A DNA stretch of 64,000 nt from contig BCIV01000006.1 of NCBI GenBank assembly GCA_001600055.1, positions 620,001-684,000 of the forward strand, written 5' to 3'. Position numbers and translations under genes: made by a program. Under the pieces are notes generated by a model. The model was not told the origin of the DNA. It did not search any database and saw nothing but the letters and a program-made list of their open reading frames with translations. Numbering within the stretch: the stretch's first letter is position 1; each line of letters begins with the position of its first letter. The DNA comes from Filobasidium wieringae (lineage: Eukaryota; Basidiomycota; Tremellomycetes; Filobasidiales; Filobasidiaceae). Of the stretch, positions 22,147-30,541 are shown one piece after another.

Positions 22147-22502
22147 CCTCCTTCGTCGACCAGAGGCGTAAGACAGTGATAGTCGAATGCCTATGATGCT
22201 TACAGGGGTAGTGATCAGGTCGAAAGGAGTGTTGTTGTATATATATCGAGCAGACAAGTTGTACCTATCTGTCCGTGCCCGCTTTATTCATTTACGCGAA
22301 CACCGCGTTCTTCGCGAAAAGGGAGAGAGTTCTACAGTTCAGGTCGGTTTCACAGCCAGAATCATTATCGTTCCACACCTTGCAGATCTAAAGTTCTTAT
22401 CCGTCAGGGTACTGCATTCTCTGGGAGCCGGGAGAGACTCTAGGGAATATACGTGTTAATTCGACCGACAAAACTTGGTTGATTAGGCTAGGGTAGAGCC
22501 GG

Positions 22503-22521
22503 CCGCTGGGTCGCGGTCTAA
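22503..22521 (+). repeat. Left terminal inverted repeat (19 bp)
   Basis: The sequence CCGCTGGGTCGCGGTCTAA is exactly the reverse complement of 30367-30385. Similarity ends at the next base on both sides, so 19 bp is the full perfect match. Confidence 0.9.
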
Positions 22522-22834
22522 TTCTTTGCGCGACACAACTAGCAACTAGACTTCCAATCATTACTGTAATATTATCTACTTCACCACTCTCACTATGTTA
22601 TTACCATTGATAAAACACAAAGACACATGATACATATGACATCATCCCCCTGAAGAGACCCCTTTCCAGCCAGGAGTTCCCGATAAAGGAGTGCACGGGT
22701 GTCACCACCCATCACCACCGAGAGGAAACATACATAACCATTTGCTTTTCCCTTCCTCCATTTCTACTCTATTCCTCTTCTCTACCAAACCAATACTATC
22801 ATATCTACCCACCAGTACCAACAATATTCACAGT

Positions 22835-23319
22835 ATGCCAGAAATTAGAGAAGTCAGGGATATGGTCAGACGGGTAAGTTCCTCACGGTAGCTCTAATTA
22901 TTTAACTATAAATTAAGACTTTCTTTCACTCTCACCAGGCTCAACCCTACCTTCCACTTGAACCTTTGCCTTATCAAGTGCAGTTCTTCCCTGAACATAT
23001 CAGAAAGAATCCATATATCGGGACTACTTTGAAAACTATAGGATTTCAAGATGCTACCGGCTTGTACCTGCACCTTCAACCTCAAATCTTCAATCGGCCC
23101 ATCATTTTTATTAATCAACAATCACTCTACACACATGGCAAGAGCATCTTCATTATCCTAAATCAAATTGGACAATATAAACATTACTTGAGAGCACAAT
23201 TTGCATTACATGGTCATATGCTAGTGGTGGGTGACCGAGAGATGAGGGAAATAGAAGAATACAGAGCAACACTCCTCGGACCTCCCCCTCTTACTGGACA
23301 GATCCACATATCTTCCTAG
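22835..23319 (+). CDS. Unknown element-borne protein 1 (139 aa)
   Basis: I do not recognise this protein. Two exons (22835-22873 and 22939-23319) join in frame at CGG|GCT to give 140 codons including the stop. The product begins MPEIREVRDMVRRAQPYLPLEPLPY and has an even mix of hydrophobic and charged residues, suggesting a folded domain. It shows no signal peptide, membrane helix or catalytic motif I can name. It is the first gene inside the left terminal repeat, 56 bp before the next gene on the same strand. It could be the N-terminal part of that gene separated by a stop, but no donor/acceptor pair joins the two in frame. It may therefore be a separate small gene or the product of a disrupted longer gene. 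Confidence 0.5.
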
Positions 23320-23375
23320 TTCTAAGGTCACCGGTACCAGCATTCTCTTCTATTATTTTCCTGGATCATAATAGG

Positions 23376-24663
23376 ATGTGCACTCTCACCACCGTCACTA
23401 AACAAATGACCTTCTATGACAATTCAATTTTCTACTACCCTACTCAGGCTGGTGGAGGTGAAGGTGCCGATCCTATATTGGAATGGAATGTCTTTCAGAG
23501 GAATATCATGGCATGGAGGACACCAGCTGCAAGTCCCATCTTCCTGTTCATGTCAGGGTGAGTTCAATCACATACTGCCGATGCTGGATTGTGCTAATTT
23601 TCTATTTTTTGATGTAGAAACCAGCAACTCTTCAACGGTCTGGGCATGTGTCTCATCAATGAATCACTGCATTATGCATCCATCCATCCCCTCACATCAG
23701 CAACTGTTGTGTCAGGAAGTCTTGAACTAAGGCTTCGGCTTGTTTCTGGAATCAGAGTGAGTCTATGGTGGTACTGCTCTTGGTGTGATCTTCCGAGGAG
23801 CTAATTACATTCATTAATTGAATCACAGGCAGTCATGGACTTGATAACTAGTCCTGAATATTATACTAAGGTATCGGCTACAACCACTTTACCATCAGCC
23901 TTTGACATCAATCGGAGCATCACTGCCTATATTGTCAGCATCACTAAGGTGTACAGGAAAACCACAGCAAGGGGAGCGAGAGTCAAACCTGAACACTACC
24001 AGTTACTCAGGAGTCTCGGCTTGATCCAGGGTACAGCTACTGCTTCAAAAGCAGGTCGCCTCATCCATGTTGGTAGACAGCTTAGGAGCCGTTCCTTGAA
24101 CAACCCCCCACCACCTCCTGCACAGGAGAGCTATAGAGAGCTACGAGTCAAAATGTTTAGTGAGTTTTTTTTGGGTTTCTGCATGTCGACACCACATATT
24201 GATAGTGCATTCCAATATAGAATATGAAGGCCTTAGTCAACAAAGGACAAAGGCTCACTTCTGTTACACCGTCATTGAAGCACCCCCTCAAACAGCACCA
24301 CCAACAAATACAAATGAACGACTATACTACCATTACATGGAGATTTTTCCGAATGATCCAGAATACTCTAAAAAGGCTCTACATGCGATGTCAAACTCTC
24401 CTGACATTGGGGTCTCAAGCTTCTACTATCTCCTCAGTGCAGCACATGTGGTCGATGAGCTGAACAGCCAAAGGGCTGGGAGACCTTTTAGCAACAGGAC
24501 TGGTGTGGTAGGACGTCCAGGCCATTCTGCCTTACCTGCTCACTGGTCTTTCTCTGAAAAACAGATCTTTGTCAATCAGCATTACACTGGTAATCAGCAA
24601 GCACTTGTGAGACAAGCTCAGGCTTGGACTGAAGGGGAGGAGGAGGAGCACGATGACGATTGA
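23376..24663 (+). CDS. Unknown element-borne protein 2
   Basis: I do not recognise this protein. The ATG at 23376 opens an exon ending near 23557 (TCA GG|GTGAGT). The next exon starts AAACCAGCAAC, another begins GCAGTCATGGAC after the intron ending near 23828, and the final join is TTT A|..|TG CAT TCC near 24159/24209. The frame stays open across all four exons to the TGA at 24661-24663, about 370 residues, ending in an acidic run (EGEEEEHDDD). Visible features are a conserved-looking core (ILEWNVFQRNIMAWRTP), a Pro-rich hinge (NNPPPPPAQ) and a C-terminal region SPDIGVSSFYYLLSAAHVVDEL. No nuclease, polymerase or DNA-binding motif stands out. Its intact splicing and position inside the terminal repeats suggest a role for the element, perhaps as an integrase partner; that is a guess. 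Confidence 0.55.
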
Positions 24664-24839
24664 AAACACTGATAATTTTTAAGTTTCTATTGTACTTACA
24701 TGTCTATTCCTGTTGTATGTACTTATATGACACCCCATTCCACCCCTTAACATGAGGAGCAATGCATGATGATGGATATCGATGTTAAAATTTTTGGATT
24801 TTTTGAAGTATCGATTGTCATTTGTGCCTGTACACCAGG

Positions 24840-24955
24840 ACTTCTAGGGTTTTACGAAGAGCCAATATGCGATGAAAATACAAACCGATTTCTGGACCTT
24901 GTTAAGAAGACCAAATTGTATTTAGGATAAGAAGGGATTAATTTTAGGACTTGCC
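24840..24955 (+). repeat. Direct repeat copy 1 (about 116 bp)
   Basis: It begins ACTTCTAGGGTTT and ends GAAGGGATTAATTTT..GACTTGCC. It aligns nearly end to end with 25030-25146, with scattered substitutions and small gaps. The blocks CTTCTAGGGTTT, AGAGCCAAT and AAGAAGGGATTAATTTT are shared. Confidence 0.8.
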
Positions 24956-24964
24956 ATTAGCTGC

Positions 24965-25013
24965 GTTTCAGAGATGAAACTTGTGGTTCAAAGGAGAGTG
25001 CCGAAGCTCCTTT
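24965..25013 (+). other. Two adjacent perfect hairpins between the direct repeats
   Basis: Hairpin 1 (24965-24980) is GTTTCA-gaga-TGAAAC, with a GNRA-type four-base loop. Hairpin 2 (24990-25013) is AAAGGAG, a ten-base loop, then CTCCTTT. Both stems are perfect. Function is unknown. Confidence 0.6.
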
Positions 25014-25029
25014 GTCCCTTCATTACCCA

Positions 25030-25146
25030 ACTTCTAGGGTTTAACAAAGAGCCAATTTGCAACAAAAATTCAAACCTATTTCAGGATCATGTTAACAGGA
25101 TCAAACACTACCTAGCATAAGAAGGGATTAATTTTTGTAGACTTCC
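25030..25146 (+). repeat. Direct repeat copy 2 (about 117 bp)
   Basis: This is the second copy of the repeat at 24840-24955, with start points 190 bp apart. The two are clearly related but not identical, so the duplication is not very recent. Confidence 0.8.
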
Positions 25147-26704
25147 TTGATGACTTATAAACCACACAATCTGGAGACGATCCATAACAGTATGTGTTTT
25201 ATCGGTTGACTATCACATGCATATAGACATCAATGTATAAGTTCCAACTATTTTACAAAACAAAGAACACAAATATATGGAAGTGACAGATCATAACTGC
25301 TGTTTATAGGACATAAATATGGAGGATTTCTATGACCGTAATACTGAAAGAATCAATCAGTATCCAACTAGAGGTACACAGCAACTGTCTACGCTGATGA
25401 TGCAGTCATCCTGATTGATTTTTTTCTCTAGTTGATACTTCAGTTCTAGAGCCTATCCTTTGCAAGCTGGTGGATGAAGAGAATGTAATCAACAGAGAGA
25501 CATTGTTGAAGAGGCTATGTAGCAAGGGAATTGTTATAGGGTGAGATTTATTTATATGACAAGCCACGTTGTTAGGATGTTGATCTCACCTGCAATAGTC
25601 GAACTTCACTGAACAAATACATGAAGCAGTTCAACATAGGAGGTCCCAAAAAGTCTGGTTTTACTATGGAACAATCAGAGAGTGTTGTAGTAATGCACAT
25701 TGAGCAACACGATCCACAGCATTCTGAATCAGCCAGTCGCATTGGCTTGGCTCTAGGTCAAAAGGGAATTCACATACGCAGGTACACAAACAGCCAACTT
25801 TCCCCCTTCTTATTCAGCTCATCCAGCTCATGCCTTTTTGTCTCACATAGACACATCATCAGGGATATCATGAAAGCTCACTATCCAGAGGGCTTTGAGA
25901 GACGTTCAAGATCTGCATTGAACAGGACATCTCATGCATCTGTTCTCAAATCTTACGGACCAAATGAGCAATTATCAATAGATGGTCACGATAAATTGAC
26001 CAGTATAGGCTTCCCTATATATGGAATGCGAGACAAGTACAGTTGCAAATGGCTGTCCCTGGTAGCAGTCCCCAATAACAGGACAAACATAGTTACTTCA
26101 TACCTCTTCCTCAAGCTGATACGAGACCTAAATGGTATGTTATCAGTTTCTTTTTTGCTTATCATTGCATGCATTACCCTCATTCACTCTCCCTCTTGTA
26201 TATATTATAACCCAATTTAGGTATTCCGTTGCAAGTAACTAGTGATCACGGAAATGAAGTCATGGATATCTTTGCATATCAATCGTCACTACGGTAGTAG
26301 ATACTCTTTCTTTATCAAAGCCATCAGATTAGCTGTAACCACTTGGATTGAATAGGGATACGGCTGCTGTAGAGCCATTGCAAGAACTCTTGGATGATTT
26401 AGACCTCGATGCAGCACCTGAGCCTCATAGGTTCCTACCCTCAACTAGAAACATCACGGTAGAAAGAGGATGGAAACCTCTGGTCAAAAAGTTCAATCAA
26501 AAGTTTGTTGTCAGCACCATGAACGCAATTTCTGGGGGAGACTACGTCAAGGACAACAATTTACATCGGTAAGTAAATTCAGTGAAAAACAACGAGAAAT
26601 AGCTAAAAAAACGCTCGTAATAGGGTGATATATCTCTTTCTAATGTCTCCCATCGTCTGTAAGGAATTGGAACTTTACAAGGATGCTGCCAATTGCCAGA
26701 TCAT

Positions 26705-26708
26705 CCGA
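26705..26708 (+). repeat. Target-site duplication CCGA, left of solo LTR
   Basis: CCGA here matches CCGA at 27332-27335 immediately beyond the LTR. Including the next T, a 5-bp CCGAT also matches, so the exact LTR start is ambiguous by one base. Confidence 0.8.
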
Positions 26709-27331
26709 TGTGGTGAGCTGGACGAACAGGACTACTATCGGATACCCTAGGACCGATCCGCGGTACACCTTTTAGAAATCTTCGCCCCTCCGCTTCGCTA
26801 CCGATCACTTCTTCTCCGTGTTTCATCGGTCTACTGCGATAGCTACGCCTTGAGTATACGTTTGATCAAACTCTTTTCTTTCCTCATCACCTTTTACACA
26901 GCAAGCTCAGTCTTGCGACGGATCGCTTAGTCGCCTCCGGTCTTTTTAGAATTCTCCTTAGTATAGTATAAATACAAGACTGATCCGAAGCGATTAGCGA
27001 AGTTGTACGACTTAGGAGAGAAAAAGCAAGGAAGAGCTCAAAGAGTAACGAGACCTTACTTCACATCACATTCATTTTACCTACGCCTTTATCCTTCATC
27101 TGGACTAGTACCCATAGAGTGGTACCACGTCTTCGACTCAATACTAGAGGGGCGTCACCGGGGAGTCTAAAGAGTAGACTCAGCTCGTACTGATAGCTAG
27201 CCGGACAGTATCCACAGTGGAGATAGTTGTTGATCGATTTAGTTTCTTTGTTTTAGTGTTTCGCCAATAGTCTCTAGTAGAACTAGACATAGCCCACCGT
27301 TAAGCCACCACCACTCCCCACTTGCACCACA
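26709..27331. mobile_element. Solo LTR of a retrotransposon (623 bp)
   Basis: The segment starts TGTGGTG and ends CACCACA, a perfect 7-bp terminal inverted repeat of the TG...CA type, and is flanked by CCGA on both sides. It has no long coding frame. A TATAAATA box at 26967-26974 is suited to a retrotransposon promoter. It is less AT-rich than the host element and interrupts the integrase codon series exactly at a codon boundary. With no internal retrotransposon genes, it is best read as the residue of LTR-LTR recombination. A short non-autonomous DNA element is possible but the termini and TATA box favour an LTR. Confidence 0.85.
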
Positions 27332-27335
27332 CCGA
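27332..27335 (+). repeat. Target-site duplication CCGA, right of solo LTR
   Basis: It is the direct copy of 26705-26708. The integrase frame resumes at 27336 (TCC CAG AAG AAT) and continues to 27620. Confidence 0.8.
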
Positions 27336-27725
27336 TCCCAGAAGAATATAGGCTTACCTTCAGGAATGTCACCAAATACAATTTACGAGACTGAGGGACA
27401 TGACTGCTTGCTACAGTTATCACTTGAAGGCATGGATCAAGTCGATACATGGATATCTGAGATTGAGTCATCGCATCCACGTCTATTGTGTTTCTTGACC
27501 ATTTACGAAGAAAGATGGGCAAATAGGCTGCTTTTGCATGTTTTATCAAGGATGGACGATCCACCATCTGAAATTTCACTGCTGAACATGTGGCAATGTG
27601 GCCTTTGTTCCGTGCAATGACCCAAGAAATGTATCAAGTGCCGTTTGATGAGGAGAATCAATGAGTGATGAGATGAGATGTTTTTCAGCATATTAATATA
27701 CATAAGAGAGAACGAGAGAAGCTGT

Positions 27726-30235
27726 TCAGGCCTGAGAGAGAGAACCAAAAGGCTGTGGCCTGTGCACAACTCTACCGCTACCAGTCACCTGAAGAATAGG
27801 CTCAGGCTGATTGGTGTTGATCCCCTCATCCCTTTCTACAGTCGATGAAGCAGCAGCTGGAAGCCCTAGATAACATGATAACTCAGTTTGATGAAATAAA
27901 AACAGATGATGTGCACACGTACCATCACGAGGCAAGGCAAACTCAATGTTGCTCCTAGTATTTCTGGTAGTCCTTGAGGCTTGCGAGGTGCTTTTTCCTC
28001 GTCCCCTTCTGGCCCTTTTGGGAGGAGGAGGGAGATCATCTTCTTGATTAACCCGTTCATTTGCAGCATTCAACATTGCGGTTGCAAGACTTTCTTGTTG
28101 TTGCAAAGGATCATGACCAATCTCTCGACATATTTTGTTGCATGCATGTGTAGTGGTCCAAGCTTTGATTCCATCTGGTCCTGCATCACCGATACCCAAA
28201 CCACCTTGTATGCTATAGATAGTGTGTTAGCTAGTTTAGTTGTTTAACAATAGCCTACTGATACTGACGAGTGTAACATTGGGTCAAAGAGCATGATGCT
28301 TGAAGCTGTGGTCCAACCTTCTAAGTCCGAGAGTACCATCGTATGCCCACTTGCCTCATAAGCAAGGTGAGAAAATGCTGCAACTGTAAGATCAAAACGA
28401 GACAAGCCTTGTCCCGCTTCTAAGGATCCCAAGAATCTGACGAGCTGGCCCTCCTGAAACTCTTCCAATAGCCAAACTGCTGTACCACTGTCATCTACCA
28501 GTACTTGTACCGAAGCAAAAGACAGTGCTGAATTCTGATTGATTAGCTTGTTTCCTCATCTCCTCGATAAATTACTTACGGATAATCCATCAAGATGCAG
28601 CAGTGTTAGCTACCGCTCGATTCATCTCCTCAATCCAAGCTGCACCCCACATATGGGCTTCAGCCTCATGTTTGAGAAGACCAAGGATTGAAGTGTGCAC
28701 AATGCCCATAGCATCTATAACCGTTGGAAGAATCCTTTTGACTACATATCTTTTCATAGGAGGAGTATCAGATGGTTGCAAATCCTCGGCATAACGAGCC
28801 TATTAGTTTGCCATCAATAGCTGCCAGTCAGTGACCCGTTTGTTTATGAATTGCTCAACAACTTACCTCATAACAAATCTTGTTTGACCTTCACCAAGGA
28901 CATCGTCACTGATCCATAGACAGCTTAATTCCTCGGCTATTTCCCATTCAATCAGATTTTTTGCCGTGTTCCACTTTGCATGGTGATTATAAACAAGGGT
29001 AGGGAGTATTTGCTGGAATTTCCTTTGATGGGGGGCTACAGTGGCGGTGATAGCAGGGGCAGGCAATGAGGAAACATATCTTCGTCTTTGCAGCGGTGGT
29101 GGAGGAAGCAGTTGTTGCTGTTGTGTGACCCTCCCAGGTAAAATAGACCTAGCTTGAGACTTGGTATGACGGGTGGGTAGTGCTGAAAGAGCATCACTTC
29201 TACTGTCATGATCATCATCATCCAGATATTCTACTTGATCCGCCCGTACTTCAATGACAAAACTGATGGTTGAAGCATTTGGCTGGTTATCGGTCCCACT
29301 GAGCAGGTGGTTGGCTCGAGCCCATCGATGGAATGATCCTATGTCTTTCTCATAGCTATCGGCTTCCACAAGAACTGATTTCCCTTTACTTGAGAGGTAT
29401 AGACAGACTACACCTGCCTTTTCAGGGTCGTTCCTAAGCCCAAAATGAGTATCAGTTCTTTCTCCAATTTCTTAGAAAAGGTTGGCTCTCGTACATGTTG
29501 ATGAAAGCAGCAGGCCGATCCATCACAGGTGCATCCCAATAATTCTTTTGTATCTTTTCAACCATGAGTTTTAATACATCCCGCAACAACATATCCCTTA
29601 CGACACTGAGATAATGTCGAGGACCTTTTCTCGGAGGACAGAGGTATCCCTGCCTTTCTGAATAAAGAAAGTGAACCTCCATATTTGGTCCGCTCGTCAA
29701 AGTAGAACCAGCCATTGAAATCTTCTGTCGAGCTGCTTGTGCTGCCCTTATTGTTTGTTGACTGTTTGAGTCAGTCCCGCTACCATTGTGACGAAGTCTA
29801 GTTGCATTTGCTTCATCACGGTAGGCTGAATAATTTGTTGCTAGCATACCTATAAGGGGCAACAGCACCGTCAGCTAATACCAGAATGGGATATCTGCCT
29901 TGCAATACTGACTAGGGTGGGGAGTATCATCCGGTGTTATAGCAGATTTTACACATGCCGCACACATTGATTCTCCTTTTTTCTTCAATCGTCCATCTCG
30001 CATGCATAATTGCAAAGTCTATTCACACTCAGAATAGTATTTAATATCAACAAATCATTGGAATAGTATACACACATACCTTAGACACAGCAATGGTAGC
30101 TGGGGTCTTCCGTTCCAATGCTAAAAAACTGCATCTTCCACATTGCTCAACCGGTCCTGTAAAAGCACCTTCATCACAGCCGTTACAGCTATAAATCTCA
30201 ATGCTATTGCTTTCCATCTTGATATGCTCTTCCAA
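27726..30235 (-). CDS. Alpha-kinase (MHCK/EF2K/TRPM7 type) with Cys-rich N-terminus
   Basis: The start ATG is at 30235 and the TGA at 27726-27728, with about seven introns. The N-terminus has paired cysteines (CNGC, CGRC, later C...CAAC), suggesting a zinc-binding module. The centre (29868-29000) is a Ser/Gln/Pro-rich linker. The C-terminal half is an alpha-kinase catalytic domain: nucleotide loop VLGEGQTRFVMRA, likely ATP Lys in MKRYVVKRI, then FSHLAYEASGHTMVLSDLEGW with the catalytic Asp, LFDPMLHS, and the Gly-rich loop GIGDAGPDGI. The zinc-site ligands are present as the His of MLHS and HACNKIC. A basic tail (PPPPKRARRGRGK) looks like a nuclear signal or AT-hook-like segment. Family knowledge: alpha-kinases phosphorylate Ser/Thr in helical substrates. 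The gene is convergent with the integrase (106 bp between stops) and inside the terminal repeats, so it appears to be element cargo. Kinase identity is firm; the role is unknown. Confidence 0.85.
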
Positions 30236-30366
30236 TAGATATAGAATAGGTCTGTATATGTAGATTGCTTGATAATATGTTGTAAAGCTTGTAGTGTAAT
30301 ATCATTACCCGGGTGAAAGTAGTATTTTGTTGTGATTATTTATTTATTTACATTCATAACTGGCAT

Positions 30367-30385
30367 TTAGACCGCGACCCAGCGG
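30367..30385 (-). repeat. Right terminal inverted repeat (19 bp)
   Basis: It is the exact reverse complement of 22503-22521 and marks the right end of the element. The next gene (Rsc9) starts 156 bp beyond. Confidence 0.9.
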
Positions 30386-30541
30386 ACGACCGTACTAGGG
30401 TCGAAACACGATCCGCGTGAACAAGCGAAAGAACCTACTTCAACATTTCTCAAGACGGATCGCCGTTTGCCAAAAGGATGAACAAGAGCTCTACTTGATC
30501 ATTTCGTATCGCTATTACATTACCAAGCTGTTTCATTCCTC

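Follow-up and report, generated by a model that had tools for sequence, protein, structure and literature searches.

The window analysed here is a 64,000-nt stretch of the Filobasidium wieringae genome (C6:620001-684000, contig BCIV01000006.1). It contained a putative IS3EU-like transposon with a transposase, an alpha-kinase and a third gene, a candidate DNA glycosylase. A second copy was present on contig C5, as found by searching the 19.76-Mb genome in 33 contigs. The features of the window copy, with its target-site duplications (TSDs) and solo long terminal repeat (LTR), were:

22488..22493: left TSD CTAGGG; the same 6-mer stands at 30395-30400, and its offset relative to the repeat core, (11,11), equals that of CCCGTC on C5
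22494..30394: complete IS3EU-like element, 7901 bp with the solo LTR included; ends common to the C5 copy, flanked by the TSD
22494..22521, + strand: left terminal inverted repeat, TAGAGCCG...; 24 of 28 bases equal to the right end
22835..24660, + strand: gene 1, candidate Fpg/Nei-like DNA glycosylase; product begins with MPE, and exon 23618-23756 holds an H2TH-like motif
24807..25135: pair of direct repeats of 139 nt each, 75% alike, located after gene 1 and before the transposase
25319..27620, + strand: transposase (DDE, rva_4), PF24764, 68% identical to P0001
25319-25373, 25432-25540, 25599-25781, 25851-26134, 26221-26293, 26356-26568, 26624-26708, then the stretch after the LTR to 27620, + strand: transposase exons
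26709..27331, + strand: solo LTR, 623 bp, TG...CA, inside the transposase; TSD CCGA at 26705-26708 and 27332-27335
27726..30217, - strand: alpha-kinase, PF02816, its N terminus rich in Cys and its tail basic; catalytic exons from about 28800 to 27923
30367..30394, - strand: right terminal inverted repeat, TACGGTCG... reading inward, from the aligned ends of both copies
30395..30400: right TSD CTAGGG, identical to the left TSD

Ends of the element and its second copy

A sequence-only reading of the window had described perfect 19-bp inverted repeats, and these were present at 22503-22521 and 30367-30385. With up to three mismatches allowed, the repeat matched the window twice, which is beyond chance (mean 0.03 in 100 shuffles). 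When four ends from the two copies were aligned, the 19-bp repeats proved to be the inner portion of a longer imperfect terminal repeat. In both copies, the consensus was TAGAGCCG followed by GCC or TGA and GCTGGG... on one side, and TACGGTCGT followed by CC or GA and GCTGGG... on the opposite side. Window and C5 copies had 25 of 28 bases in common at each corresponding end, and the left and right ends of each copy matched at 24 of 28 bases. The terminal repeats recovered by a repeat search measured 29 nt (86%) for the window copy and 40 nt (78%) for C5. All four ends started with 5'-TA, giving TA...TA termini, and each copy had one end reading TACGG and the other TAGAG. Alignment of the copies, a check proposed in the sequence-only reading, also defined the target duplications. 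A 6-bp TSD flanked each copy (window CTAGGG, C5 CCCGTC), and its offset from the core was identical in the two; 0.17 such matches would be expected across 676 offset pairs. In the window, a CTAGGG-type direct repeat was also present shifted by one base. Because the aligned ends were conserved further out and flanked by TSDs, the element ends were set at 22494 and 30394. The repeat-bounded nature of the element was therefore upheld, while the borders first proposed, 22503..30385, fell short by 9 bp per side.

On C5, two repeat places at 433275 and 439974 faced each other at a distance of 6.7 kb. This copy comprised C5:433266-440001, ended as the window element did, and held a transposase, an alpha-kinase and a TET/JBP-like gene, inverted relative to its ends. 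The repeats thus recurred on another element copy with the same ends and gene pair. Pieces of the C5 transposase were 60-67% identical to the window transposase. Altogether, the transposase had 15 matches in the genome: seven window pieces, four in the C5 copy, one host-like gene at C5:307406 and three from a distant integrase lineage. Two direct repeats of 162 nt, 91% alike, lay in non-coding sequence of the C5 copy (L034:7405-7735).

Host genes lying between chance inverted repeats would be in keeping with the finding of only two copies and with the control counts, by which about five of 11 repeat-like places were expected. The genome-wide search with up to three mismatches gave 11 places, the facing pair on C5 among them, compared with five for a reversed-pattern control, and the weakest repeat matches were therefore at chance level. 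The exact 13-mer core, however, occurred at six places and never in the control, and identical ends, TSD offset and gene pair stood at two unrelated loci. The second copy on C5 ruled out this explanation, to which we assign a negligible probability. There were also isolated repeat-like ends, three on C1 and one on C4, and neither a transposase nor a kinase match lay within 6 kb of them. At C1:360677-360734, two IS3EU-like ends abutted, with the inward direction of each pointing away from the point of contact; the 6 kb to either side again lacked transposase and kinase matches. This arrangement may be left over from a product in which two ends were joined.

Transposase and relation to IS3EU

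The spliced DDE integrase proposed earlier was recovered as a match to PF24764 (rva_4) with an E value of 1.5e-10, above the Pfam cut-off, and with D160, D219 and E271 as its catalytic set. The closest homologue was P0001 from Filobasidium floriforme (Tremellomycetes), with 68% identity over 99%. Its counterparts D163, D222 and E273 showed little or no variation when 12 of the 13 homologues were aligned. An AlphaFold model of P0001 (mean predicted local distance difference test score 79.9) resembled TnsB, IstA and retroviral integrases; these structure matches were weak, with a best E of 3e-4 and low template modelling scores for the top matches listed. The model had a helical N terminus, and inspection by eye showed no HHCC zinc finger in the transposase. 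A search of viral contigs with the transposase profile gave 10 pattern matches, none of which was confirmed.

The window copy is damaged, its transposase being interrupted by the 623-bp solo LTR, which inserted with the 4-bp duplication CCGA. Nine near-full-length relatives of this LTR, 86-97% identical, were found elsewhere in the genome. The sequence-only reading had counted two unknown genes. The stretch after 27332 was rejected as a separate gene, being the transposase 3' end severed by the LTR, and the upstream genes may be one spliced gene.

Other rva_4-like integrases, 30-33% identical, were located at C13:741257, C19:408142 and C3:605275, those on C13 and C19 containing masked bases. 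They were rejected as the same element, forming a separate lineage without a PF02816 place. A gene at C5:307.1-308.5 kb with long Gln/His-rich stretches contained a 64-aa region 39% identical to the transposase N terminus (E 7e-11), and no DDE-core match was listed for it in the transposase search. It is perhaps a host-adopted transposase DNA-binding domain.

By its ends, TSD length and transposase type, the element is assigned as an IS3EU-like transposon. IS3EU is grouped with GingerRoot and has TA..TA termini and usually 6-bp TSDs, and the first catalytic D in this group lies 100-300 residues from the N terminus (PMC10045372). The element shared the 6-bp TSD, the termini and, with D160, the position of the first D. 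It differed in its alpha-kinase, as the available text of that paper makes no mention of a kinase. A Polinton was rejected: the 6-bp TSDs fit, but none of the other genes of the Polinton set was recognised. The TSD length of Polintons is given in PMC10045372, as are the 4-5 bp TSDs of Ginger, which was rejected against the 6 bp found here.

All TET-carrying IS3EU families carry an alpha-kinase opposite the transposase (Kojima 2025, PMC12730594). They are known from rust fungi and the truffle Tuber indicum and have the TET/JBP gene between transposase and kinase, and those of rusts have TAYGG..CCRTA ends and terminal inverted repeats longer than 30 bp (PMC12730594). The element had 6-bp TSDs, TA..TA ends, a DDE transposase and an opposite alpha-kinase in common with them, and the likeness extended to a TET/JBP-like gene in the C5 copy. 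In that copy, however, the gene lay beyond the transposase, on the same transposase side as gene 1 of the window, and the window copy carried the glycosylase-like gene instead. KDZ and other TET-carrying fungal transposons also bear DNA-demethylation genes but have other transposases (PMC12730594). The pairing of transposase and alpha-kinase is already published for TET-carrying IS3EU, contrary to the sequence-only reading, which knew of no described family with both. The available text of PMC12730594 names alpha-kinase twice, in passing and both times on IS3EU, and the string 'Tremell' is absent from its main text. In the literature searched, at the level of title and abstract, no other paper joining alpha-kinase to IS3EU was found. 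The features not found in this literature are the pair in a tremellomycete-like genome, a third gene with a faint though consistent likeness to Fpg/Nei glycosylases, and a TET/JBP-like gene placed as on C5.

Alpha-kinase and selection

The window kinase matched PF02816 with an E value of 4.2e-25, which bears out the spliced alpha-kinase read earlier on the strand opposite the integrase, although the gene model is not clean, with an in-frame TGA and a weak donor. Models that skip the TGA scored 89.4 bits (window) and 84.4 bits (C5) against a cut-off of 21.3, and single-exon matches were also above the curated cut-off. PF02816 was found at two places in the genome, counts that are lower bounds, and both were within elements; a kinase without repeats and integrase was thus not seen among them. 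In both copies, the kinase was encoded on the strand opposite to the transposase. The Lys, Glu, Asp and His-x-Cys-x3-Cys positions were kept in both kinases. In alpha-kinases, catalytic and zinc roles are assigned to the Lys, the Asp and the H-x-C-x3-C residues. The N-terminal 75 residues contained seven Cys in the window kinase and eight in the C5 kinase. The window kinase also had a basic stretch, KRARRGRGK, and no such cluster occurred in the C5 kinase. The Cys-rich N terminus and the basic stretch of the window kinase suggest nuclear action.

Between window and C5 copies, the transposases were 61% identical over 427 codons, with replacement change (pN) of 0.27, silent change (pS) of 0.87 and pN/pS of 0.32 (bootstrap 0.27-0.36). 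The kinases were 41% identical over 607 codons, with pN 0.40, pS 0.86 and pN/pS 0.47 (bootstrap 0.43-0.52). Replacement change far below silent change, with silent sites near saturation, indicates long purifying selection on both genes. In a tree of both copies and 11 of 13 homologues, which left out P0008 (short) and P0013 (very long branch) and retained some long branches, the window transposase paired with P0001 (98/100) and the C5 transposase fell outside this pair. With 12 of 13 homologues, the pairing of the window transposase with P0001 was supported by 98/99. By this grouping, the window and C5 lineages look older than the split between the window copy and P0001.

A host alpha-kinase captured once and carried as passive cargo, with no help to the element, would account for the irregular or partly damaged kinase frames in both copies. 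The excess of silent over replacement changes across 607 codons speaks against it, as does the presence of the kinase in both lineages here and in IS3EU of rusts and a truffle (PMC12730594). We consider passive carriage improbable. The kinase could instead phosphorylate the transposase or its DNA complex and time the movement of the element. It faces the transposase in both copies, as in TET-carrying IS3EU (PMC12730594), both genes are under selection, and a regulator would be expected to appear as such a constant partner; this constancy, however, fits a host-directed role equally well. Control of the transposase is a possibility that we hold to be somewhat unlikely. For action on silencing or chromatin proteins, the chances are about even. 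The occurrence of the same pair in two old lineages, beyond rusts and truffle, argues that the kinase is part of the element's way of life. It is unusual for a DNA transposon to keep a kinase as a standing component, and such kinases have received little study.

Third gene and DNA methylation

Gene 1 of the window is probably a divergent Fpg/Nei-like protein, judging from motif and profile comparisons. Eight splice choices preserve its frame, and it may be two reading units, with the junction between 23213 and 23340, or one spliced gene. Its product starts MPEIREVRDMVRR, comparable to MPELPEVE of Fpg, with Pro2 and Glu3 present. These two residues have a catalytic role in Fpg/Nei glycosylases. 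In separate Pfam scans, the first part matched PF01149 (E 0.24) and the second part the H2TH family PF06831 (E 0.068). All four NCBIfam matches were Fpg, with a best E of 0.0066. In the PDB, one shared stretch gave the top two matches, to an AP-lyase chain (E 0.4) and to Nei-like glycosylase 2 (E 0.52); three antibody chains followed, and another Fpg ranked sixth of six. None of the Pfam, NCBIfam and PDB matches was significant alone. Against a home-made profile of eight plasmid-borne Fpg and the host Fpg, gene 1 in one splice choice ranked first of 363 with 15.1 bits, compared with at most 1.7 in 362 decoys (62 open reading frames and 300 shuffles). An hhalign comparison with Fpg gave a score of 38.4 and a probability of 59%, compared with at most 24.0 in 162 decoys (the 62 open reading frames and 100 of the 300 shuffles).

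An unrelated protein with an H2TH-like stretch by chance would explain that no Pfam match rose above the cut-off. In joined models of 339 and 346 aa, which exclude the last exon, the N-terminal Fpg match was lost and H2TH alone remained (E 0.063 and 0.065). No homologue of the 364-aa second part was found among 5.8 billion proteins, none of 4494 candidates being confirmed. Global alignment to the Fpg profile failed, and gene 1 has Met in place of the Asn in the GxGN motif of Fpg. On the other side, all three libraries gave a best match of Fpg/Nei type, the profile and hhalign scores stood clear of their decoys, and the start is MPE. We regard an unrelated protein as unlikely. One ordinary H2TH/Fpg place was present elsewhere in the genome, and tblastn of gene 1 against plasmids gave no match. 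Fragments akin to the first part of gene 1 were located at C7:844863-845136, with a stop inside, and at C15:99992-100044; the rest of the element was not recognised there.

The TET/JBP-like gene of the C5 copy matched PF12851 with an E value of 1.5e-8 and 34.5 bits, just under the cut-off of 34.9, with X placed at an in-frame stop. It retained HRD and a later H, the HxD...H motif. PF12851 was found at six places in the genome, none inside the window element. The five further TET/JBP-like places were C10:329861, C24:37497, C8:665074, C5:443851 and C10:118952, three of them above the Pfam cut-off and two weak.

The observed/expected ratio of CpG was 0.45 in the window element without the LTR and 0.61 in the C5 copy, compared with 0.94 in the window outside the element and 1.03 in the LTR, which is a later insertion. 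TpG and CpA were raised in both CpG-depleted copies. The lowest CpG among 109 3-kb windows fell in the window element; these overlap and derive from the window plus 14 other loci, the C5 copy being covered by some of them, and so are no random sample of the genome. The genome contained one cytosine methyltransferase place. CpG loss of this kind is the mark left by methylation and subsequent deamination, and the scar makes anti-methylation genes plausible helpers of the element.

Uracil-DNA glycosylases belong to an enzyme family different from Fpg/Nei. Their genes are known from a casposon (PMC4046053) and from pipolins (PMC9710591), which resemble the present case as mobile elements with a DNA glycosylase but are prokaryotic, and the role proposed for the casposon enzyme is end repair, not demethylation (PMC4046053). 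An Fpg/Nei gene on a fungal transposon was not found in the literature searched, as judged by title and abstract.

Proposed mode of action

The explanation that we hold with high confidence is an IS3EU-type transposon, with a kinase that would be a working part and a third gene that probably counters methylation. The transposase would bind the ends through its helical N terminus, then cut and join them with a 6-bp stagger by integrase-type strand transfer, so that the whole unit moves. The kinase would be a working part of the element rather than a passenger. It is probably nuclear, and its most likely targets would be either proteins of silencing or chromatin or the transposition complex. Whether glycosylase-like as in the window or TET/JBP-like as on C5, the third gene probably counters cytosine methylation.

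Several points weigh against this explanation. Both kinases have DLEG, compared with DIQG in eEF2K, so that Glu replaces Gln of the D-[LI]-Q-G motif. The kinase frames are irregular in both copies. An in-frame TGA occurs at the same place in the two diverged kinases, after ...AAS and before the best GTAAGT donor (about 28590 in the window, about 2990 in L034); it likely lies in an intron, for which no donor was convincing. One junction of the window kinase requires a weak splice donor, and the C5 kinase has a further in-frame stop. A protein search with kinase residues 330-600 gave 3719 candidates, none at E 1e-3. The codon comparison omitted stops and used frame-preserving junctions. The assignment to IS3EU was made from published descriptions of the group, and one end reads TAGAG here, compared with TAYGG in TET-carrying IS3EU of rusts (PMC12730594). 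The CpG loss reflects methylation-type decay without naming its agent.

A more tentative proposal is that IS3EU here consists of a constant core of transposase and alpha-kinase with a single slot in which genes for erasing cytosine methylation can be exchanged, either TET/JBP-like or Fpg/Nei-like. If true, the element would itself supply a base-excision step directed against DNA methylation by the host, the kinase would be an ancient and general part of an anti-silencing kit, and published fungal alpha-kinase 'expansions' would largely be transposon genes. Glycosylase-like and TET-like genes on the same transposase side of CpG-depleted elements offer a testable model in which transposons fight DNA methylation.

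Melampsora larici-populina has 79 alpha-kinases, Puccinia graminis has 39, and three Microbotryomycetes have 0 (PMC4469406, Table 3). The rust proteins belong to the same Pfam family as the kinases here and are described there as a gene-family expansion. By inference, much of this expansion may be IS3EU cargo, and fungal alpha-kinase family expansions merit a recheck for transposon ends.

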